Of a stretch of 64,000 nt of DNA, positions 27,897 to 54,636 are shown piece after piece (the first letter of the stretch is position 1; each line of letters starts with the position of its first letter). Position numbers and translations under genes: made by a program. This DNA comes from Bacteroidota bacterium (GTDB taxonomy: Bacteria > Bacteroidota > Bacteroidia > Chitinophagales > Chitinophagaceae). The DNA is taken from positions 1-64,000 of the forward strand of contig JAGWUV010000014.1 in the NCBI GenBank assembly GCA_028875875.1, read 5' to 3'. A model generated the notes under the pieces. That model did no database searches. It was not told the DNA's origin and worked only from the letters and a program-made list of their open reading frames with translations.

Positions 27897-29444
27897 TCAC
27901 TTTCTTTTATTTTCTAAAAATTTCCTTCTTATTATTTCCTGCACCGGCACTTTATCAATTTTACTTTGCAGCCAACCAATAATATCAAGGTACATAAAAG
28001 ATCTGCTTTCGAGCGGATTACCTTCCATGGATTCTAATTTTTCTTTTAGCGATTTAAAAGCTGGAATGAGTTTTTGAGAGGAAAGAGAAAAGGATTTACG
28101 CAGGAACTTCAACACTTCTTCTTCAGCAGTACTCAGGTTCTTCATCTTAGCCATGAACCTGTATACCGATTTAATAAGGTATTCGAGCAACTGATAATTA
28201 CCAAGTTCGAAGTGGGCGATAAGATGCAACAGCCTAGCGTAACATTGCAGATCTGTACGCAAATTCATTTTCCAGTTGATGATCTTATTAAGGTAATCAA
28301 TTGCTTTCTCTGGCTGACCGGCTCCAAAATACAAGCAGGCAATTTTGTAATAAAATACCAATACTCTGTGGCGGTCTAAATGCAGCTTATACTCTTCAAG
28401 CTTTTCATCTATGTAAGGAACCAGTGCAAGGCCTTCTGTAAATGAACCTTCAAGAAAATGACGGTTGATCTTGGCTATATTAAGATATACGAAAGTTTGT
28501 ATCCGCACATTGGCATTCATCTGGCCTTCCGCAGAGACTGAAAACGCTTCGAACAACTTGATCGCCTCATTGAACTTCTCGTAATTATTCAAGTTGAAAT
28601 GAGCGCCCAGTAAATTATGCATTCCTCTGATGTACTGTACCGCCTCAATATTTTTCATAACAGGCATCTCTTCAAAAAGGTCTACCCATTTTTGTGTATT
28701 GCGGTAATACATAAGCAGGTCCTGTAGTATAAAACCATACCAACAATAAGATTGGTAGAGGTAGAGTTTTTCATAAAACGACATTTGCTTGAGCTCGTAT
28801 GCAGGCAAATTAGTTGTAAAAAAAGCTTTAACGGCATGTACATCTTTGTCATCCCGGGCATGCCCATGTTTTATGTACCAACCATATAACTCCAACGCAA
28901 GGCTGGATAATTTACTGGTAAGCGTTAAGTGAGTATTAATATCGTTTGACTCAACAGTCAACTCTTCCGCCCTGTTTTCCATGCTTCGTGTAATATGCAT
29001 GGCTTCAATCTTTTTCTCAAAAATTACCGCCTGCAACTGATATGTGATCAGCTCGTATTTCTTTGCGATTTCTTTCAGCTTATCCAGTATCTTAAGGCTT
29101 TGGAGGTATAGTCCCTTATTGTACAATATCCTTGCATAATCGAGTTGTTCATGCAACTGCATATCAATATTCGCAGCATCCTCAATTATCCGTAAACTAC
29201 TCAGCAGCTGTTTGTACAAATGGGCTTTTATGTTGGAGAGTTGTTGTTTTTTAAGGCTCCTGTTCTTTTTCAGCAGCAGTACTTCATCATATTCATCCAT
29301 TTTGTCCATAGCATCGAACAATTGAACAATTTTAAGTTCTTCTCCCCCTGAATGTCGCTTCACATAGAGCTTAAAATTTCTTTTTTCTCCTTTATCGAGA
29401 GATTTGATGAGCTGAAAAACAATATCCGTACTCCTGTTAGGCAT
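27897..29444 (-). CDS. Large helical-repeat (TPR-like) protein, function unknown
   Basis: The 515-residue protein is almost entirely alpha-helical by composition, with repeated ~35-40-residue helix pairs of TPR-like character, e.g. QLDYARILYNKGLYLQSLKILDKLKEIAKKYE and KIACLYFGAGQPEKAIDYLNKIINWK. The N-terminal 60 residues (IVFQLIKSLDKGEKRNFKLYVKRHSGGEELKIVQLFDAMD) are typical of a conserved Bacteroidota family that I recognise only as uncharacterised. No signal peptide or membrane segment is seen, so it is cytoplasmic, possibly a scaffold. It is divergent from leuA with a 199-bp gap that holds no clear promoter boxes. Confidence 0.75.
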   Translation of the reverse strand: MPNRSTDIVFQLIKSLDKGEKRNFKLYVKRHSGGEELKIVQLFDAMDKMDEYDEVLLLKKNRSLKKQQLSNIKAHLYKQLLSSLRIIEDAANIDMQLHEQLDYARILYNKGLYLQSLKILDKLKEIAKKYELITYQLQAVIFEKKIEAMHITRSMENRAEELTVESNDINTHLTLTSKLSSLALELYGWYIKHGHARDDKDVHAVKAFFTTNLPAYELKQMSFYEKLYLYQSYCWYGFILQDLLMYYRNTQKWVDLFEEMPVMKNIEAVQYIRGMHNLLGAHFNLNNYEKFNEAIKLFEAFSVSAEGQMNANVRIQTFVYLNIAKINRHFLEGSFTEGLALVPYIDEKLEEYKLHLDRHRVLVFYYKIACLYFGAGQPEKAIDYLNKIINWKMNLRTDLQCYARLLHLIAHFELGNYQLLEYLIKSVYRFMAKMKNLSTAEEEVLKFLRKSFSLSSQKLIPAFKSLKEKLESMEGNPLESRSFMYLDIIGWLQSKIDKVPVQEIIRRKFLENKRK

Positions 29445-30831: not shown

Positions 30832-31950
30832 ATGAAAAAGAATATTACAGTCATAAATGGAGATGGCATAGGCCCAGAAGTAACGGCTCAGGCTGTACGT
30901 GTGCTGAATGCAGTGGCTGAAAAATTCAATCACCATTTTTCTTATACTTATTGTTTAATGGGGGCCTGTGCCATAGATCAAACAGGCAACCCGCTGCCCG
31001 ATGAAACCATTGAAACCTGTTTAAACAGCGATGCGATTTTATTTGGTGCCATAGGCGATCTGAAATATGATAATGATCCAACCGCCAAAGTAAGACCCGA
31101 ACAAGGTTTATTGAAGCTTAGAAAATCATTACAACTCTTCGCCAATATCCGCCCCATTGTTACCTATTCTTCATTACATCATCTTTCTCCTTTAAAAGAA
31201 TCCAAATTAACAGGAGTTGATTTTGTAATCTTCAGGGAACTCACGGGTGGTATTTATTTTGGAAAGAAAACGCTAAGCGAAGACCAGTTGCAAGCTTCTG
31301 ATGAATGTGTGTACGCTGCTTCTGAAGTAGAACGTATTGCACACATTGCTTTTCAGCATGCAACACTCAGAAAGAAAAAATTAACCCTAGTAGATAAAGC
31401 CAATGTACTGGAAACATCAAGGCTATGGAGAAGAACCATTCAGCAAATAGCTGCTCAATACCCCGGTGTTGCAGTTGATTATATGTTTGTTGACAATGCA
31501 GCGATGCAACTCATCGTAAGTCCTCAACAGTTTGATGTGGTCTTAACAGAGAATATGTTCGGGGATATCATCAGTGATGAAGCAAGTGTTCTCAGCGGAT
31601 CATTAGGTATGTTGCCTTCTGCATCTTACGGCATCTGCACAGCATTGTTCGAACCTATACATGGATCGTATCCGCAAGCAGCAGGAAAAGATATTGCCAA
31701 CCCTATCGGCTCAATCTTATCTGTAGCTATGATGCTGGATTATTTTAACCTGCTTACTGAAGCAAACGTGGTGAGACAAGCGGTAAACTGGACCCTACAA
31801 AATGGTTTTGTTACGAAAGATATCGATCCTATCAATTTTTATTTTACTACAACTGTTGGTGAACTAATCAGCGACTTTGTACTGAACAATATTAAAATTG
31901 ATGAGATCAATCGTGAAAACATTGAATTAAGAAAATCAACTATCATTTAA
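30832..31950 (+). CDS. leuB: 3-isopropylmalate dehydrogenase
   Basis: The 372-residue enzyme oxidises and decarboxylates 3-isopropylmalate with NAD+. It shows the isocitrate/isopropylmalate dehydrogenase fold: ITVINGDGIGPEVTAQAVRVL at the N-terminus, the adenine-side loop FGAIGDLKYDND, the substrate arginines in PEQGLLKLRKSLQLFANIRP, the catalytic VIFRELTGGIYFGKK, LVDKANVLETSRLWRR, the metal-binding aspartates in TENMFGDIISDEASVL, and the nucleotide site EPIHGSYPQAAGKDIANP. It is 21 bp behind leuA. The isomerase genes leuC and leuD that should act between the two are not in this window. A promoter and attenuator separate it from ilvE. Confidence 0.96.
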   Translation: MKKNITVINGDGIGPEVTAQAVRVLNAVAEKFNHHFSYTYCLMGACAIDQTGNPLPDETIETCLNSDAILFGAIGDLKYDNDPTAKVRPEQGLLKLRKSLQLFANIRPIVTYSSLHHLSPLKESKLTGVDFVIFRELTGGIYFGKKTLSEDQLQASDECVYAASEVERIAHIAFQHATLRKKKLTLVDKANVLETSRLWRRTIQQIAAQYPGVAVDYMFVDNAAMQLIVSPQQFDVVLTENMFGDIISDEASVLSGSLGMLPSASYGICTALFEPIHGSYPQAAGKDIANPIGSILSVAMMLDYFNLLTEANVVRQAVNWTLQNGFVTKDIDPINFYFTTTVGELISDFVLNNIKIDEINRENIELRKSTII

Positions 31951-32004
31951 AAATGATAGAATCTTATGAATATTGTTCATAACACTTAATTCTAAAAAAG
32001 TTCT

Positions 32005-32035
32005 TTGTTTATTATGATGAGGTGAGCTATATTTG
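32005..32035 (+). promoter_or_regulatory. Consensus promoter of the ilv leader and operon
   Basis: TTG (32005-32007), 20 nt, TATATTTG (32028-32035): full match to the Bacteroidota promoter pattern. The leader peptide start is 20 nt downstream, so the transcript would begin only about 13 nt before it. Confidence 0.75.
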
Positions 32036-32054
32036 TTTATCACAAATCACTTCT

Positions 32055-32162
32055 ATGTTGTTAAACAGAATGAATAATACAATCAATGCAATCAGTGCAC
32101 TAGTGGTGCTGGTGGTTGTCATTATTATTCCTGCGCTGCATGGAGGTGAATGTTGCATGTAA
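32055..32162 (+). CDS. ilv operon leader peptide (branched-chain amino acid attenuator)
   Basis: A 35-residue frame opens 20 nt behind a consensus promoter. Residues 15-28 read ALVVLVVVIIIPAL: ten consecutive Leu/Val/Ile codons, the composition expected for a leader that senses charging of exactly the three tRNAs supplied by the downstream operon. It resembles enterobacterial IlvL in its VVVIII-P core. A second in-frame ATG at 32070 (residue 6) may be the true start. The coding sequence overlaps the proximal arm of an antiterminator (32141-32148), and an intrinsic terminator (32189-32215) follows before ilvE. Translation stalling at residues 16-25 would free the arm; finishing translation would cover it. 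Confidence 0.85.
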   Translation: MLLNRMNNTINAISALVVLVVVIIIPALHGGECCM

Positions 32163-32198
32163 CAAAAGTTAAGTAAACATAACAACAGCCCGCCTCCA
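32141..32198 (+). promoter_or_regulatory. Predicted antiterminator pairing of the ilv attenuator
   Basis: TGGAGGTG (32141-32148) can pair over 8 bp, with one G-U, with CGCCTCCA (32191-32198). That second arm is the 5' half of the terminator stem, so the two structures exclude each other. This is deduced from complementarity only. Confidence 0.6.
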
Positions 32199-32215
32199 AC
32201 AGAGGCGGGTTTTTT
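32189..32215 (+). terminator. Attenuator terminator upstream of ilvE
   Basis: CCCGCCTC (32189-32196), loop CAACA, GAGGCGGG (32202-32209), then TTTTTT. It lies 26 nt behind the leader peptide stop and 55 nt ahead of the ilvE start, within the operon leader. Confidence 0.9.
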
Positions 32216-32270
32216 ATTTGCTATGTGCATCCGCCAAGAATAATAAACCAAGAATAAAAACTATCAGAAC

Positions 32271-33176
32271 ATGTACTATAACGAACATACTATTATTTAC
32301 CTCAATGGAGAATTTGTAAAAGCTTCCGAAGCAAAAACAGACTTCTTTGGCCAAACCTTACATTATGGTTATGGTGTATTTGAAGGTATTCGTTCTTATA
32401 GAACTGTTTCCGGTGAAACGAGCATCTTTAAAGCAACGGAACATTTTGTTAGATTGAAAAATTCTGCACTGGCTTTAAACATGCCATACAAATACACCGC
32501 AGAAGAGTTGATCGCCGCGACCTCTACTTTGCTTGCTATGAATCAGTTGCAGGATGCATACATCCGTCCGTTGGTGTATGCCCCTGCCAACATGAGCTTC
32601 AATCCAAACAACGAATCGTTCATTGTAATCGAAGCCTGGCAGATGGCCCCTTTTTTGGGAGAAAAATTATTACGTGTAAAAACTTCCTCCTTTCAAAGGC
32701 CGAATCCCAAAGCCTTTAAAATTCAGGCAAAAGCAACCGGGCATTATGTAAACTCGATACTGGCCAGCCAAGAAGCAAAAGCAGCGGGATATGATGAGGC
32801 ATTGTTGTTAGATATGAATGATCATGTTGCTGAAGCACCCGGCGCTAACGTATTTTATGAGAAAGACGGTAAATTATTTACACCATCGACAGGTAATATT
32901 TTACCGGGCATTACAAGGGCTACTGTTTTACAAATTTGTAATAAGCTCAACATACCTGTTGAAGAAAAGAAGATTGACATTACGGAACTCTACGGTGCAG
33001 ATGCCGCCTTTTTTTGTGGCACTGCCGCAGAAGTGATAGGCATGCACTCACTGGATGATATGCCATTTAAAAAAGAATGGAACAATACAGTAAGCAGGCT
33101 CGTGCAAAAGACCTATAAAAATATGGTCGTCAATAACCAGGAAGTGATATTGAATGAAGTACTGGGTGTTGAATAG
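32271..33176 (+). CDS. ilvE: Branched-chain amino acid aminotransferase
   Basis: The 301-residue enzyme is a fold type IV PLP aminotransferase that makes Leu, Ile and Val from their keto acids with glutamate as donor. Class IV landmarks are present: FGQTLHYGYGVFEGIRSYR near residue 30, the PLP lysine in IQAKATGHYVNSIL, YDEALLLDMNDHVAEAPGANVF, and the C-terminal FFCGTAAEVIG (phosphate-binding region). Length matches the short bacterial form. It is the first structural gene behind the attenuator; ilvD follows after 80 bp that contain a dispersed repeat. Confidence 0.96.
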   Translation: MYYNEHTIIYLNGEFVKASEAKTDFFGQTLHYGYGVFEGIRSYRTVSGETSIFKATEHFVRLKNSALALNMPYKYTAEELIAATSTLLAMNQLQDAYIRPLVYAPANMSFNPNNESFIVIEAWQMAPFLGEKLLRVKTSSFQRPNPKAFKIQAKATGHYVNSILASQEAKAAGYDEALLLDMNDHVAEAPGANVFYEKDGKLFTPSTGNILPGITRATVLQICNKLNIPVEEKKIDITELYGADAAFFCGTAAEVIGMHSLDDMPFKKEWNNTVSRLVQKTYKNMVVNNQEVILNEVLGVE

Positions 33177-33256: not shown

Positions 33257-34942
33257 ATGGCTACAGAATTGAACAAGTATTCGAAAACATTAACACAGGA
33301 TGAAACACAACCGGCAGCACAAGCAATGCTTTATGCCATTGGATTTCAGGAAGATGATTTTAAGAAAGCACAGGTAGGTATTGCGAGTATGGGTTATGAT
33401 GGTAATCCCTGTAATATGCATTTAAATGATTTGGCCAGATTGGTAAAAGAGGGTGTTAATAATAATGAGCTTGTTGGACTTATATTCAATACCATTGGTG
33501 TGAGTGATGGTATGAGTAATGGTACAGACGGTATGCGCTATTCACTCGTAAGCCGCGACGTTATTGCAGATTCTATAGAAGCTGTTTGTGGTGCTCAATA
33601 TTATGATGGTTTGATCGCTCTTCCAGGTTGTGACAAAAATATGCCCGGCTCCATCATTGCAATGGGCCGTTTAAACCGTCCGTCTATCATGGTATATGGC
33701 GGTACAATTGCACCGGGACATTATAAAGGACAAGACTTAAACATCGTATCTGCTTTTGAAGCATTAGGGCAAAAAATTGCAGGTAACCTTGATGAAGCAG
33801 ATTTTAAAGGCATAGTGCAACACGCCTGCCCCGGCGCCGGTGCCTGCGGTGGCATGTATACAGCCAACACCATGGCTTCTGCTATTGAAGCATTAGGAAT
33901 GAGCTTGCCTTTTTCTTCTTCCAACCCTGCATTAAGCGAAGAGAAGAAACAGGAATGTATTGCAGCAGGAAAAGCCATTCGTGTGCTGTTGGAAAAAGAT
34001 ATCAAACCATCAGATATCATGACACGCAAGGCATTTGAAAATGCCATCACTGTGATCATGGTGCTGGGAGGAAGCACCAACGCCGTACTGCACATGATTG
34101 CTATGGCCAAAAGCGTTGGCTTAGACGTAACGCAAGATGATTTCCAGGCGATCAGCGACAGGGTGCCCGTACTGGCAGATTTCAAACCCAGCGGTAAATA
34201 CCTGATGCAGGATCTGCATAATCATGGTGGTGTTCCCGCAGTGATGAAATACTTGTTGCGCAAAGGTTTATTGCATGGTGATTGTTTAACCGTTACCGGC
34301 AAAACACTTGCTGAAAACCTTGCTGAAGTTGAAGAAATCAATTTTGAAACACAAGATATTTTCTATCCGCTTGAAAAACCATTGAAAGCTACTGGCCATT
34401 TACAAATATTATACGGCAATCTTGCTGAAGGTGGCAGTGTTGCAAAGATCAGCGGTAAAGAAGGAGAACGTTTTGAAGGCCCTGCACGTGTATTTGATGG
34501 AGAGTTTGAACTGATCGCAGGTATCCGAAGCGGCCGCGTAAAATCTGGTGATGTGGTAGTAATCCGCAATGTGGGACCAAAAGGAGCTCCGGGCATGCCG
34601 GAGATGCTAAAACCCACATCTGCTATCATCGGTGCAGGTTTAGGTAAAAGCGTTGCCCTAATTACTGATGGAAGATTTAGTGGTGGAACACATGGATTCG
34701 TCGTCGGTCATATCACTCCTGAAGCCTATACGGGCGGATTGATCGGACTGGTAGAAGATAATGATATCATTGAAATTGATGCAGTTGATAATAAACTCAT
34801 TCTGAAAGTAGATGATGCAACCATTGCAAAACGTAAAGCAGCATGGAAACAGCCCGCGTTAAAAGCAACAAAAGGCCTATTGTTAAAGTATGCCAAGAGT
34901 GTAAAAACAGCTGCTGAAGGTTGCGTTACAGATGAAGAGTAA
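33257..34942 (+). CDS. ilvD: Dihydroxy-acid dehydratase
   Basis: The 561-residue Fe-S enzyme dehydrates 2,3-dihydroxy acids to the keto acids of Val and Ile. Cluster-binding and family motifs are visible: [11 protein letters not shown] near residue 123, [16 protein letters not shown] near residue 192, and the C-terminal [11 protein letters not shown] and [22 protein letters not shown], with the catalytic Ser-region SGG. Length is standard for the IlvD/Edd family. Genomic place between ilvE and ilvB argues against the sugar-acid dehydratase relatives. ilvB follows after 39 bp. Confidence 0.97.
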
Positions 34943-34981: not shown

Positions 34982-36721
34982 ATGCAAACTTTAGAAATCA
35001 CTAAAGAAAATACATCAGCCTCCAAAGAGCCTGTTACTATTACAGGTTCCCAGGCTGTGCTGGAAGCATTTATTGCCGAAGGTGTTAAAACAGTTTTTGG
35101 ATATCCCGGCGGTGCCATCATGCCTATTTATGATGCATTGTACGACTATACAGATAAATTAGATCATATCCTCGTTCGCCATGAACAAGGCGCCATTCAT
35201 GCAGCTCAGGGCTTTGCCCGCAGCAGTGGCAAAACAGGTATCGTGTTTGCAACCAGTGGCCCCGGTGCTACTAATCTTGTTACAGGATTGGCTGATGCAA
35301 TGATCGATTCAACACCATTGGTGTGTATTACCGGCCAGGTGTTTGCTCATTTATTGGGAACAGATGCTTTCCAGGAAACAGATGTGATCAATATTACCAC
35401 TCCAGTTACCAAGTGGAATTATCAAATTACTGATGCTAATGAAATTCCACATGTTCTGGCAAAAGCGTTCTACATTGCTAAAACAGGAAGGCCCGGACCC
35501 GTATTGATCGATATTACCAAAAATGCACAGCTTCAAAAAATAGAATATACAGGTTACGAAAAATGTAACCACATCAGAAGTTATCGTCCTAAACCCATTG
35601 TACGTAAGGAATATATTGAGCAAGCTGCTCAGCTGATCAATGAAGCCCAAAAACCTTTTGTCATTTTTGGCCAGGGGGTAATTCTGGGAAGAGCAGAAAA
35701 AGAATTCAAAGCCTTTATTGAGAAAGGTGGATTTCCTGCTGCATGGACTATTTTAGGTATGAGTGCGATTGATACTGATCATCCACTGGCAGTTGGTATG
35801 CTCGGTATGCATGGAAATTATGCTCCCAATGTACTAACTAACGAATGCGATGTGTTGATCGCTGTTGGTATGCGATTCGATGATCGTGTAACGGGGCGCC
35901 TCGACAAATATGCCAAACAAGCTAAAATTATTCATTTAGATATTGATCCTTCTGAAATTGACAAGAACGTTAAGACCACTGTTCCGGTTTGGGGAGATTG
36001 CAAAGAAACCTTACCTCAATTAATGCAACTGATTCAACCCAAAGATCACAGTGCCTGGTTACAGGAATTCAGGGCATTGGAAGCCAAAGAAGTGGAAGCC
36101 GTAATTCAGGAGGAGCTGAACCCTATCTCTGAAGTGATGACTATGGGTGAAGTGATCAAAACACTGAATGATTTAACCAACGGCGAAGCCATCATCGTTA
36201 CCGATGTTGGTCAGCACCAGATGGTGGCTTGCCGTTATGCCAAATTCAATCAATCAAAAAGCAACATCACATCGGGAGGTTTGGGAACGATGGGCTTTGC
36301 TTTACCGGCAGCGATCGGCGCTAAATATGGTGCCCCCAACCGAACTGTTGTTGCGGTAATTGGTGATGGTGGTTTTCAGATGACCTTACAGGAATTAGGA
36401 ACCATTATGCAGTTCGATGTTCCGGTGAAGATCATCATCCTGAATAACCAGTTCCTTGGAATGGTACGCCAATGGCAGCAATTATTCCACGACAAAAGAT
36501 ATTCTTTCGTGAATATTACAAGCCCCGATTTTGTACAAGTAGCCAAAGGTTATCACATCGATGGACAAAGTATTTCAAAAAGAGAACAACTGAAAGATGC
36601 ATTGCAAACTATGCTTAACCATGCAGGTTCTTACCTCTTGGAAGTGATGGTAGGCAAAGAGAATAACGTGTTCCCGATGGTACCGCAAGGTTGCAGTGTA
36701 AGTGAAATAAGGCTGAAATAA
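34982..36721 (+). CDS. ilvB: Acetolactate synthase, large (catalytic) subunit
   Basis: The 579-residue ThDP enzyme joins pyruvate to pyruvate or 2-oxobutyrate. It has the three-domain layout: N-terminal PYR domain with YPGGAIMPIYDAL and the catalytic glutamate in VRHEQGAIHAAQGFAR; central FAD-binding domain (GRPGPVLIDITKNAQ, GMLGMHG, GMRFDDRVTGRL); and C-terminal PP domain with the ThDP/Mg site GDGGFQMTLQEL and NNQFLGMVRQWQQLF. It works with the regulatory subunit encoded next. The FAD region and RQWQ identify a biosynthetic rather than a catabolic enzyme. Confidence 0.97.
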   Translation: MQTLEITKENTSASKEPVTITGSQAVLEAFIAEGVKTVFGYPGGAIMPIYDALYDYTDKLDHILVRHEQGAIHAAQGFARSSGKTGIVFATSGPGATNLVTGLADAMIDSTPLVCITGQVFAHLLGTDAFQETDVINITTPVTKWNYQITDANEIPHVLAKAFYIAKTGRPGPVLIDITKNAQLQKIEYTGYEKCNHIRSYRPKPIVRKEYIEQAAQLINEAQKPFVIFGQGVILGRAEKEFKAFIEKGGFPAAWTILGMSAIDTDHPLAVGMLGMHGNYAPNVLTNECDVLIAVGMRFDDRVTGRLDKYAKQAKIIHLDIDPSEIDKNVKTTVPVWGDCKETLPQLMQLIQPKDHSAWLQEFRALEAKEVEAVIQEELNPISEVMTMGEVIKTLNDLTNGEAIIVTDVGQHQMVACRYAKFNQSKSNITSGGLGTMGFALPAAIGAKYGAPNRTVVAVIGDGGFQMTLQELGTIMQFDVPVKIIILNNQFLGMVRQWQQLFHDKRYSFVNITSPDFVQVAKGYHIDGQSISKREQLKDALQTMLNHAGSYLLEVMVGKENNVFPMVPQGCSVSEIRLK

Positions 36722-36794
36722 ACACAATTCAAAAGTTAAAATAAACAGGCACAAGCCACTCGTTTTTAACTGCTCACTTTTGAAATCGTTACGT

Positions 36795-37382
36795 ATGAAA
36801 CAGGAATTTACCATAACAGTATATACAGAGAACCAGGTAGGTTTACTTAATCGTATTGCCATCATGTTCTCCAGAAGAAAGATCAACATCGAAAGCCTGA
36901 ATGTTTCGCCGTCAGAAGCAGAAGGCATTCATCGCTTCACCATCGTTATCAACGAATTTGAAGATGTGGTTCGTAAACTTTGCCGGCAGATTGAAAAACA
37001 GGTAGAAGTACTAAAAGCTTATTACAACACCAACGAAGAAATCGTTTGGCAGGAACTAGCTTTATACAAAGTGCCTACCGATCAGATTGCTGAGAAAGTA
37101 AAAGTAGAAAGGTTATTACGCAAGTATGGTGCACGGGCCGTTGTGATTCGTAAAGACTATACCGTTTTTGAAACTACAGGGCAGCGTGAAGAAACAGAAG
37201 CATTGATCAATGCATTGGCCCCATATGGTTTGATTGAATTTGTAAGAAGCGCCAGGGTAGCCATTATTAAATCAAGCAATGGTTTCCATGAAAAATTAAA
37301 AGAGTTTGAAGAAAGGGAGCCTGGTGAAGAAGTAATTGAAAACGAATTTTTAGACAAACAGCAAGAGGTGTTCTCCATGTAA
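36795..37382 (+). CDS. ilvN: Acetolactate synthase, small (regulatory) subunit
   Basis: The 195-residue protein starts at ATG 36795 (a TTG five codons earlier was rejected). The N-terminal ACT domain (residues ~3-80) contains FTITVYTENQVGLLNRIAIMFSRRKINIESLNV, the Val-binding region that gives feedback inhibition of the catalytic subunit. The C-terminal half (YGARAVVIRKDYTVFETTGQREETEALINAL) is the second ALS small-subunit domain. It is somewhat longer than the ~160-residue enterobacterial IlvH because of an extended charged tail. It follows ilvB by 73 bp. Confidence 0.95.
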   Translation: MKQEFTITVYTENQVGLLNRIAIMFSRRKINIESLNVSPSEAEGIHRFTIVINEFEDVVRKLCRQIEKQVEVLKAYYNTNEEIVWQELALYKVPTDQIAEKVKVERLLRKYGARAVVIRKDYTVFETTGQREETEALINALAPYGLIEFVRSARVAIIKSSNGFHEKLKEFEEREPGEEVIENEFLDKQQEVFSM

Positions 37383-37926: not shown

Positions 37927-39411
37927 ATGGCAAATTATTTTAACACGTTATCTCTTAGAGAAAAATTGAACCAGCTGGGCGTATGTGAGTTCATGGATAT
38001 CAGCCAGTTTAGCAATGGAGTAAATGCATTAAAGGGCAAAAAAATTGTAATAGTAGGATGCGGCGCACAGGGTTTAAACCAAGGTTTGAATTTAAGAGAT
38101 TCCGGTTTGGATGTTTCTTATGCTTTGCGTCAAGAAGCTATTGATGCAAAACGCCAGTCATGGAAGAATGCAACTGAAAATGGTTTTACCGTAGGAACTT
38201 ATGAAGCGTTGATACCTTCTGCAGATCTAGTAATCAACCTTACTCCCGATAAACAACATACTGCTGTTATCAATGCAGTAATGCCTTTGATGAAAAAAGG
38301 CGCTACCCTCGCCTATTCTCATGGTTTTAATATTGTAGAAGAAGGCATGCAGATTCGTAAAGACATTACCGTTATCATGGTAGCTCCTAAATGCCCCGGT
38401 TCCGAAGTACGTGCTGAATATGTAAGAGGCTTTGGCGTTCCTACCTTAATTGCCGTACACCCTGAGAATGATCCCGAAGGAAAAGGGTGGGAATTAGCAA
38501 AAGCTTATGCAGCAGGTACAGGCGGGCACAGAGCCGGTGTATTAAAATCTTCTTTTGTTGCAGAAGTAAAATCAGATTTGATGGGCGAACAAACCATCTT
38601 ATGTGGTTTGTTGCAAACTGGTTCTATCCTTTGTTTTGATAAAATGATTGAAAAAGGAATTGAATCAGGTTATGCTTCTAAATTAATTCAATACGGTTGG
38701 GAAGTGATCACAGAGGCCTTGAAACAAGGTGGCATCACTGCCATGATGGACAGGTTATCTAACCCTGCTAAGATCAAAGCTTTTGAAGTAGCAGAAGAAC
38801 TGAAAGCTATCATGCGTCCTTTATTCCAGAAACACCAGGATGATATTATGAGCGGTGAGTTTTCTAAAACAATGATGGAAGACTGGGCCAACGATGATAA
38901 GAACCTCTTAACATGGAGAGCGGCCACAGCAGAGACAGCTTTTGAAAAATCAACAGCAACTTCTGCAAAAATCGCTGAACAAGAATTCTTCGATAATGGT
39001 TTATTAATGGTGGCTATGGTTAAAGCAGGTGTGGAACTGGCTTTTGAAACAATGGTTGAATCTGGTATCAAAGCTGAATCTGCTTACTACGAATCATTAC
39101 ATGAAACGCCATTGATCGCTAACACTATCGCCCGTAAGAAATTATATGAGATGAACCGTGTGATCTCTGATACGGCTGAATATGGTTGCTATCTTTTCGA
39201 TCATGCATGTAAACCATTATTAGGCGATTTCATGAAGAAAGTAGAAACCAGCATCATTGGTAAAAACTTCAACGAAGGGAAAGACAACGGTGTTGATAAT
39301 AAGAAACTCATTGCAGTGAACAAAGCTATCCGTTCTCACCATATTGAAGTGGTGGGTGACACATTAAGACAGGCAATGACTGCCATGAAATCGATCAGCA
39401 ATATCGACTAA
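37927..39411 (+). CDS. ilvC: Ketol-acid reductoisomerase, class II (long form)
   Basis: The 494-residue enzyme isomerises and reduces acetolactate or acetohydroxybutyrate with NADPH and Mg2+. The N-terminal Rossmann domain shows [21 protein letters not shown] and ALRQEA (NADPH loop), followed by [10 protein letters not shown] and the metal-binding [16 protein letters not shown]. The length and the duplicated C-terminal knotted domain (DLMGEQ-type region plus [20 protein letters not shown]) place it in the class II form typical of E. coli (about 490 residues) rather than the ~330-residue class I form. Confidence 0.97.
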
Positions 39412-39452: not shown

Positions 39453-40745
39453 ATGATAACTGAAACAAGGGATATAAAAAATATAGTAAAATCAGGCTCT
39501 TCCTTCGAGGCAGGGAGGCTTGATTTTATTGCTGCATCCCTGCGGCTGAATAAGGTAATTACCAAAACGCCGCTTCAGTTCAATCATAACTTATCAGCCC
39601 GGTTCCAATGTAATGTCTACCTGAAAAGAGAAGACTTACAAATTGTTCGCTCGTATAAACTTCGCGGCGCTTACAATATGATGAGCAGCTTAACTAAAGA
39701 GCAATTACAACGAGGCGTTGTTTGCGCTAGTGCAGGAAACCATGCTCAGGGTTTTGCCTACAGTTGTAAAAAGCTCAACACCCGTGGAGTGGTGTTTATG
39801 CCCATCATAACGCCCAGGCAAAAAGTAAATCAAACCAAAATGTTTGGTGGAGAAAATATTGAAATCAAACTGGTGGGAGATACTTTTGACGACTGTGCCA
39901 ACGCTGCTAAAGCATATACCGAAGAGAACAATATGGTATTTGTACCACCTTTTGATGATTACCGCATCATCGAAGGCCAGGGAACCGTTGGTAAAGAAAT
40001 ACTGGAAGAATTAACAGGTATCGATTATGTTTTTATTCCGGTAGGTGGTGGCGGGTTAAGTGCAGGTGTGGGCGCTTATTTCAAAACCTATTCACCACAA
40101 ACAAAAATGATTGGTACAGAGCCGGAAGGTGCACCATCTATGTACCAGGCGCTGCAAGCAGGCCATCCCGTTACATTAGAACACATTGACCGTTTTGTGG
40201 ATGGTGCCGCTGTAAAACGTGTGGGAGATATTCCTTTCTCCATTTGCAGCGAAGTGCTCGATGATATGCACTTAGTACCGGAAGGAAAAATTTGTTCCAC
40301 CATTTTGCAATTGTACAATGAAGATGCCATAGTGGTAGAACCTGCAGGTGCTTTAAGCATTGCTGCTTTAAGCTACTATGCGGAAGCTATCAAAGGCAAA
40401 ACAATAGTATGCATTGTAAGTGGCAGCAACAATGATATAGACAGGATGCCAGAGATAAAAGAGCGTTCTTTGCAATACGAAGGATTAAAGCATTACTTTT
40501 TAATTCGTTTTGCACAAAGGCCGGGTGCCCTCAAAGAATTCGTGAATAATGTGCTGGGACCAACAGATGATATTACCCGATTTGAATATATGCAGAAAAC
40601 CAATAAAGAAGCCGGCCCTGCATTGGTAGGAATAGAATTACAGGATTCAGCTGATTATGAACAGCTGATTACCAAGATGAAATGGTTTGGGATAGATTTT
40701 TCAGAGATCAATAAGAATGATACTCTTTTTGGTTATCTGATATGA
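39453..40745 (+). CDS. ilvA: Threonine dehydratase (biosynthetic)
   Basis: The 430-residue PLP enzyme converts threonine to 2-oxobutyrate, the entry step to isoleucine. It shows the fold type II core: PLP lysine in IVRSYKLRGAYNMM, substrate loop CASAGNHAQGFAYSC, the phosphate-binding glycine loop VGGGGLSAGVGAYF, and the serine-type site in VSGSNNDIDRM. Residues ~345-430 form a single C-terminal ACT-like regulatory domain (YFLIRFAQRPGALKEFV) expected to bind isoleucine. It closes the ilv operon; gltB follows after 117 bp. Confidence 0.95.
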   Translation: MITETRDIKNIVKSGSSFEAGRLDFIAASLRLNKVITKTPLQFNHNLSARFQCNVYLKREDLQIVRSYKLRGAYNMMSSLTKEQLQRGVVCASAGNHAQGFAYSCKKLNTRGVVFMPIITPRQKVNQTKMFGGENIEIKLVGDTFDDCANAAKAYTEENNMVFVPPFDDYRIIEGQGTVGKEILEELTGIDYVFIPVGGGGLSAGVGAYFKTYSPQTKMIGTEPEGAPSMYQALQAGHPVTLEHIDRFVDGAAVKRVGDIPFSICSEVLDDMHLVPEGKICSTILQLYNEDAIVVEPAGALSIAALSYYAEAIKGKTIVCIVSGSNNDIDRMPEIKERSLQYEGLKHYFLIRFAQRPGALKEFVNNVLGPTDDITRFEYMQKTNKEAGPALVGIELQDSADYEQLITKMKWFGIDFSEINKNDTLFGYLI

Positions 40746-54540: not shown

Positions 54541-54636
54541 ATGAAAAAACAGCAAAACATATTTTCTTTCATTAAATCAACATCAACCCTTCTGATTGTT
54601 GATGGCACTATCAATACAACCACCACAACCCTGTAA
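54541..54636 (+). CDS. thr operon leader peptide
   Basis: A 31-residue frame beginning MKKQQNIFSF lies 96 bp ahead of thrA. Eight of its last 18 residues are Thr, ending TINTTTTTL with five consecutive Thr codons; several Ile/Leu/Val also occur. The composition parallels the enterobacterial ThrL peptide, so it should sense Thr-tRNA charging. The last codons and stop lie in a 7-bp hairpin (CAACCCT at 54626-54632 with AGGGTTG at 54637-54643, loop containing TAA). AACAGCAAA in its 5' end (54548-54556) is fully complementary to TTTGCTGTT (54671-54679). I found no stem followed by a U-tract, so the control step (termination, Rho, or translation) is unclear. Confidence 0.72.
   Translation: MKKQQNIFSFIKSTSTLLIVDGTINTTTTTL

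Follow-up and report, generated by a model that had tools for sequence, protein, structure and literature searches.

Ribosome-mediated attenuators have been described in E. coli and Salmonella for trp, his, leu, thr, ilvGMEDA, ilvBN and pheA (PMC1183508). The leader studied here, which precedes the ilv operon of a member of the Bacteroidota, has in common with them a short ORF with cognate codons upstream of the matching biosynthetic operon, an antiterminator arm near the end of the leader and a terminator that shares one arm with the antiterminator. It differs from them in its apparent Bacteroidota promoter, in a Shine-Dalgarno-like GGAGG arm contained in the leader frame, in a candidate protecting helix formed with the leader's start site, and in the lack of a significant match to any Rfam leader. 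This candidate helix is comparable to the extra his hairpin that has been proposed to lower basal read-through (PMC1183508).

The ilvBNC attenuator of C. glutamicum comprises branched-chain amino acid control codons, a terminator, an antiterminator and an anti-antiterminator; its transcription starts close to the leader ATG, and its expression falls when the leader start is lost (PMC11857589). By this description, the leader reported here shares with it the branched-chain amino acid codons, the terminator, the antiterminator and a predicted transcription start near the leader ATG, and the candidate protecting helix is comparable to its third hairpin; the C. glutamicum leader has 15 codons, compared with 35 here (PMC11857589). 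In the same phylum, "strong clues" of leader-peptide attenuation upstream of amino-acid biosynthesis operons were reported for Flavobacterium psychrophilum, in a passage that gives neither an operon name nor a sequence (PMC9723704), and 5' UTR ORFs "reminiscent of leader peptides" were reported for B. thetaiotaomicron (PMC7366714). A survey of 2010 states that leader-peptide systems were known only in Proteobacteria and Actinobacteria, and then adds Firmicutes (PMC2965389). Rfam contains a cis-regulatory RNA of Bacteroidetes, RF01692 or Bacteroid-trp (PMC2864571). It matched none of 24 genomes searched, that of the window included, and in a control search of 14 genomes it was found only in Bacteroides ihuae. 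We take RF01692 to be a trp attenuator. Among the paper titles listed in literature searches, none concerned ilv attenuation in Bacteroidota; Vitreschak 2004 and Lopatovskaya 2010 may contain Bacteroidota cases.

In this study, we analysed a window of 64,000 nucleotides (the whole stretch of DNA), in which the region between leuB and ilvE is, with a probability of about 0.9, a ribosome-mediated transcription attenuator of the ilv operon. The mechanism has long been known, and the ilv leader would represent a well supported new family without an Rfam match. The comparative evidence presented below points to ribosome-mediated attenuation of amino-acid synthesis in a Bacteroidota family, in this case for ilv.

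Leader frame, promoter and spread among relatives

All features of the window given here are on the plus strand. The leader peptide ORF (32055-32162, with ATG at 32055 and TAA at 32160-32162) consists of 35 codons and the stop, encodes MLLNRMNNTINAISALVVLVVVIIIPALHGGECCM and is kept in relatives. It contains a control region of ten consecutive Leu/Val/Ile codons (32100-32129). An earlier note, made on this DNA from its letters, had claimed such a leader, located behind leuB and ahead of ilvE, and both the frame and its position were confirmed: the ORF sits between the end of leuB (31950) and the start of ilvE (32271), in the gene order leuA-leuB-leader-ilvE-ilvD-ilvB-ilvN-x-ilvC-ilvA. The flanking genes were named with NCBIfam models on the open reading frames of the window. 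They are ilvE (32271-33176), the first gene of the operon presumed to be controlled, ilvD (33257-34942), ilvB (34982-36721) and ilvN (36780-37382) for the large and small subunits of acetolactate synthase, ilvC (37927-39411) and ilvA (39453-40745). A run of at least ten Leu/Val/Ile codons within ATG-started ORFs of 14-60 amino acids occurred once in the whole window, while 0.025 per window are expected by chance (40 dinucleotide shuffles).

In 59 genomes, among them that of the window, a search with IlvE found 13 loci at E<1e-70, nine of which (L002-L010) carried leader, arm and terminator. No leader was seen at the ilvE loci of L011-L014; upstream of ilvE, the contigs of L012 and L013 extend for just 149 and 118 nt. 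A further IlvE search in named genomes was limited to the best 80 loci, which by title belonged mostly to Chitinophagaceae isolates and MAGs and included the genera Niastella, Puia, Flavihumibacter and Sediminibacterium. A complete leader and terminator preceded ilvE in 67 of these best 80 loci (L087 and L090 being placed by hand), parts of the element were present in two loci cut by the contig end (L065 and L108), and the element was absent from 11, in nine of which an apparent leuB ended within about 70 nt of ilvE. The earlier note had staked its proposal on a conserved frame and conserved stems in relatives, and these were found in the 67 loci. Given how many relatives have retained it, we regard the ilv attenuator as a real and previously uncatalogued case of a known type of switch.

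To the 67 loci were added the window and six relatives, which gave an alignment of 74 leaders (A3). Before the counts, L004 and L007 were dropped, as they lie on the same contigs as L040 and L100, and L011-L014 (no leader seen) and L065 and L108 (contig end) were left out. Counts on 73 leaders exclude L006, which did not match the −7 pattern used. In the alignment, nine codons in a row had a middle T that was at least 90% conserved, while the codon around each T switched between Leu, Val and Ile. The conserved ORF together with this codon run suggests a short leader rich in codons for the products of the operon. ATG was the start codon in 68 of 73 leaders and the length was 29-37 codons in 71 of 73, with a peptide that was variable outside the Leu/Val/Ile run.

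A covariance model built from A3 matched 127 of 195 genomes of the family at E<=0.01 (107 of these at E<1e-5), leaving 68 without a match at this threshold; in the genome of the window the single match was this leader. Across the order, 16 of 149 genomes were matched at E<=0.001, 13 of them in the family and three, weakly, outside. Among 11 strong matches inspected, eight preceded an apparent ilvD (L143-L150) and two ilvE (L158 and L161). The eleventh, L142 in genome G004, is an ilv-type leader before a 425-aa gene resembling the window gene at 27897-29444, which is divergent from leuA; the ilvE of G004 has no leader. Nine weak matches were also inspected. Two of them (L153 and L154) are leaders upstream of pheA and one (L156) is a leader upstream of thrA, L154 and L156 being named by eye; L151, L152, L155, L157, L159 and L160 look spurious.

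With regard to the promoter, the claim of the earlier note that a consensus one precedes the leader held in part. A scan of the plus strand ahead of the leader for sigma-70 type promoters gave none. The sequence does contain TTTG (32004-32007), 20 nt and TATATTTG (32028-32035), which we take to fit the Bacteroidota −33/−7 consensus and which would form a Bacteroidota-type promoter at 32004-32035. With loose patterns, a −7-like element was present in 72 of 74 leaders, a −33-like element in 63 and both, at 22-27 nt from start to start, in 60. In addition, an inverted repeat was observed around the −7 box, extending towards the leader ATG (window 32020-32055; L005, L010, L038, L056 and L076). Perfect inverted repeats of at least 9 bp at this box were found in 5 of 73 leaders, versus 0.08 for shuffled and 0.71 for permuted halves, and their letters vary from species to species. 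The repeat may be either an operator or a hairpin formed only in read-through transcripts coming from leuB.

Terminator, antiterminator and the predicted position of the ribosome

Between the leader and the first gene there is an intrinsic terminator (32187-32219), consisting of a stem (32187-32211) and a U-rich tail, which the earlier note had put at 32189-32215. In the 74 leaders, 97.5% of the cells of this stem were paired and 61 cells were changed on both sides, versus 5.8 in shuffles; the covariation of stems anticipated by the note is thus seen in the terminator. The antiterminator arm UGGAGGUG (32141-32148) lies in the leader frame, ends 11 nt ahead of the leader stop codon and has as its partner the 5' arm of the terminator, CGCCUCCA (32191-32198). 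The 8-bp helix that had been proposed could be verified, TGGAGGTG being able to pair with CGCCTCCA with one U-G among the eight pairs, and by its use of the terminator arm it is mutually exclusive with the terminator. The duplex energy of the arm with the terminator region was −14.3 kcal/mol in the window.

The antiterminator was paired in 86.6% of cells of the 74 leaders, versus 41-56% when the arm was slid, and 13.4% of cells were unpaired. Double-sided changes amounted to 18, versus 7.5 in shuffles, a covariation that is thin because the core hardly varies, being nearly invariant. The duplexes of each arm with its own terminator had a mean energy of −15.6 kcal/mol, versus −15.1 when species were permuted (sd 0.12, with 0 of 200 permutations as low), and shuffled arms gave a mean of −9.8 kcal/mol. 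This preference for the own terminator was equalled in 0 of 2000 permutations with each of the sets of 53, 23 and 10 less related representatives. Two frameshifted leaders, L110 from the isolate Flavihumibacter petaseus and L106 from a MAG, encode EVV and not GG after the run and still retain the arm letters GGAGGTGG, which supports the antiterminator helix. Further support comes from the eight leaders that have lost the upper C-G pair of the terminator: the 5' C persists in them, and it can pair with the arm in all 74 leaders. Among the lowest-energy folds of seven full arm-to-tail stretches, five contained the terminator and two (L008 and L059) the antiterminator. GGAGG was also considered as the Shine-Dalgarno site of a tiny ORF starting at ATG 32150, but this start is not kept in the aligned relatives. 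It must be noted that an A-rich stretch similar to AAAATAC, about 10 nt 5' of the terminator (window 32172-32187), is kept in most of the 74 leaders and has no obvious role.

The main Leu/Val/Ile run ended 12 nt short of the first G of the arm in 66 of the 74 leaders, of which 59 were scored as 12 and seven as 3, owing to a V-L or V-I after the proline; the distance was 9 nt in six leaders and 11 nt in the frameshifted L106 and L110. In all 74, the start of the stop codon follows this G by 6-19 nt. Counted from the first base of its A-site codon, a ribosome reaches forward by about 12-13 nt and backward by about 17-18 nt. With these dimensions, a ribosome stalled on the last Ile would leave the arm just free and one located at the stop codon would cover it, as the earlier note had argued, and the spacing in the 74 leaders fits both predictions. 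The 12 nt kept in most of these leaders may be read as a natural record of the place where the stalled ribosome is required to stop. Such spacing is not universal, since the gap was 13 nt in seven of 11 his leaders (1, 4, 12 and 16 in the others), 13-16 nt in seven of seven trp leaders and 6-11 nt in the seven phe leaders that could be placed.

According to the mechanism that we propose, transcription would start about 10-15 nt ahead of the leader ATG, as judged from the promoter. With an ample supply of charged Val, Ile and Leu tRNAs, the first ribosome would reach the stop codon at 32160 and cover GGAGGUG (32142-32148), the terminator (32187-32211) would form and transcription would end before ilvE. 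When these tRNAs are scarce, the ribosome would stall within 32100-32129 and its front edge would not quite reach the arm. The arm would then be free to pair with 32191-32198 on the 5' side of the terminator, the terminator would not form and the genes from ilvE to ilvA would be transcribed. With less certainty, when no ribosome occupies the control region, 32047-32058 would pair with 32138-32149, closing the leader start and leaving the terminator free.

A candidate third state and rival readings

The last of these states was suggested by the fold of 32043-32218, in which 32047-32058, a segment holding the leader ATG, pairs with 32138-32149 through 12 bp, G-U pairs included. By duplex energy it is the strongest such helix of the 73 leaders. 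The arms preferred the start region of their own species with z values of −6.4 and −5.4 for two segments, compared with −4.0 for the own terminator arm, and nothing elsewhere went beyond −2.3. For both segments, 0 of 2000 permutations were as good with 53 representatives below 80% identity; the signal was weaker with 23 representatives (38 and 2 of 2000) and marginal with 10 (581 and 22 of 2000). Start:arm helices of at least seven contiguous pairs were present in 38 of 73 leaders, versus 27.7 after permutation. From these data, the helix is a probable anti-antiterminator, that is, a protecting state, at roughly even odds. Slightly short of even we place the complete three-state reading, in which the Shine-Dalgarno-like GGAGGUG arm would have three alternative partners, namely the finishing ribosome, the terminator's 5' arm and the leader start region. 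The use of the leader's start site in attenuation is possibly new. In this regard, the "classic enterobacterial" logic invoked by the earlier note was right in its core, while the candidate protecting helix departs from it by using the leader's own start site, and no sign of a pause hairpin over the control codons was noticed.

Attenuation could also proceed with two alternative helices and no protector, the start:arm complementarity being a side effect of a start region that is conserved and rich in pyrimidines, and this has close to one chance in two of being correct. It would explain the marginal result with 10 representatives, the small excess in one fixed register (66.1% versus 64.8%), the 12 of 73 leaders in which the helix is weaker than −6 kcal/mol and its absence from trp and his leaders, where 104 and 411 of 500 permutations were at least as good and no own-species preference was seen (for the phe rows L164 and L166 of this search the arm string was assigned to the terminator). 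It accounts poorly for the fact that, terminator arm aside, only the start region shows a strong own-species preference, for the result with 53 representatives and for the 12-bp helix of the window.

The remaining readings give up ribosome-mediated attenuation itself or make it secondary. A plain terminator insulating leuAB from ilv, with the small ORF and the alternative helix being accidental, is very improbable; the element is located 3' of leuB and would also stop leuAB transcripts, but the Leu/Val/Ile frame, the arm and the spacing are kept together in 74 leaders, the arm letters survive two frameshifts and the element precedes ilvD in L143-L150. Even fainter is the prospect of a trans-acting leader peptide, of the type reported for peTrpL in Sinorhizobium, to which attenuation would be secondary: the length of the leader is well kept, as such a role would suggest, yet the peptide varies outside the run, and L106 and L110 lose its C-terminus and keep the RNA letters. 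Control of the terminator by a ligand-binding riboswitch or a T-box is hardly credible despite the structured 5' region and terminator upstream of a biosynthetic operon, given that no Rfam family reached its gathering score in the window, that a permissive search of 31900-32400 ranked the Phe leader first (Phe_leader, 23.9 bits versus a gathering score of 55), the Thr leader second and the Trp leader sixth, far below threshold, and that what is conserved in the middle part is a pattern of codons.

Returning to the ribosome-mediated attenuator, to our knowledge Bacteroidota ribosomes make little use of Shine-Dalgarno pairing, and for this reason a GGAGG arm may be affordable inside a coding region. 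Elements of this kind could also be a means of studying the coupling of translation and transcription where ribosomes presumably work in this manner.

Leaders of other amino-acid operons

The attenuator that the earlier note assigned to this locus was borne out, and it is not confined to the genome of the window; the same logic appears before pheA, hisG and trpE. Leaders rich in Phe and Tyr and followed by terminators were found before pheA in 12 of 14 loci, His-rich ones (at least four H in eight) before hisG in 13 of 16, and Trp-rich ones before trpE in eight of 11 scanned (of 16 listed). The genome of the window has one of each type: MKKSFANTFFYFFFYFYFNQSSRVVFAKA before pheA (L164), MKNRTVHTHHHHYLP before hisG (L184) and MNKNFQNSSWWWHTNLNRGL before trpE (L211). 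Arms complementary to the terminator were recognised by eye in several phe, his and trp leaders. It is very likely that his, phe and trp are also under ribosome-mediated attenuation in this family, by leader genes and RNA elements without a match among the Rfam families tested. If the three-state reading were true, the ilv leader would belong, along with those of his, phe and trp, to a general regime of attenuation of amino-acid synthesis in Chitinophagaceae.

Leaders rich in Thr and Ile were found before thrA in seven of 11 loci scanned (of 12 listed), and by the rule used no terminator was detected downstream of them; L204 and L216-L220 were left out of the thr and trp scans. In the window, a Thr-rich leader, MKKQQNIFSFIKSTSTLLIVDGTINTTTTTL (54541-54636), lies about 100 nt ahead of thrA (match from 54733). 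Its stop codon is inside a small hairpin, AACCCTGTAAAGGGTT, followed by a stretch like CATATTACC..TGGGC that extends to about 54690. Similar hairpins and stretches, without a U tract, accompany the thrA leaders of L195, L196, L200 and L201, and the thrA leader would thus have a different, unexplained mechanism.

Finally, of the 60 ilvD loci listed across the phylum, 30 were scanned, and in 10 of these the gene was preceded by a leader rich in Leu, Val and Ile and followed by a terminator, all of them in three other families (L226, L227, L230, L233, L235-L239 and L248). Their arms are different, e.g., GGGAAG facing CCTTCCC.
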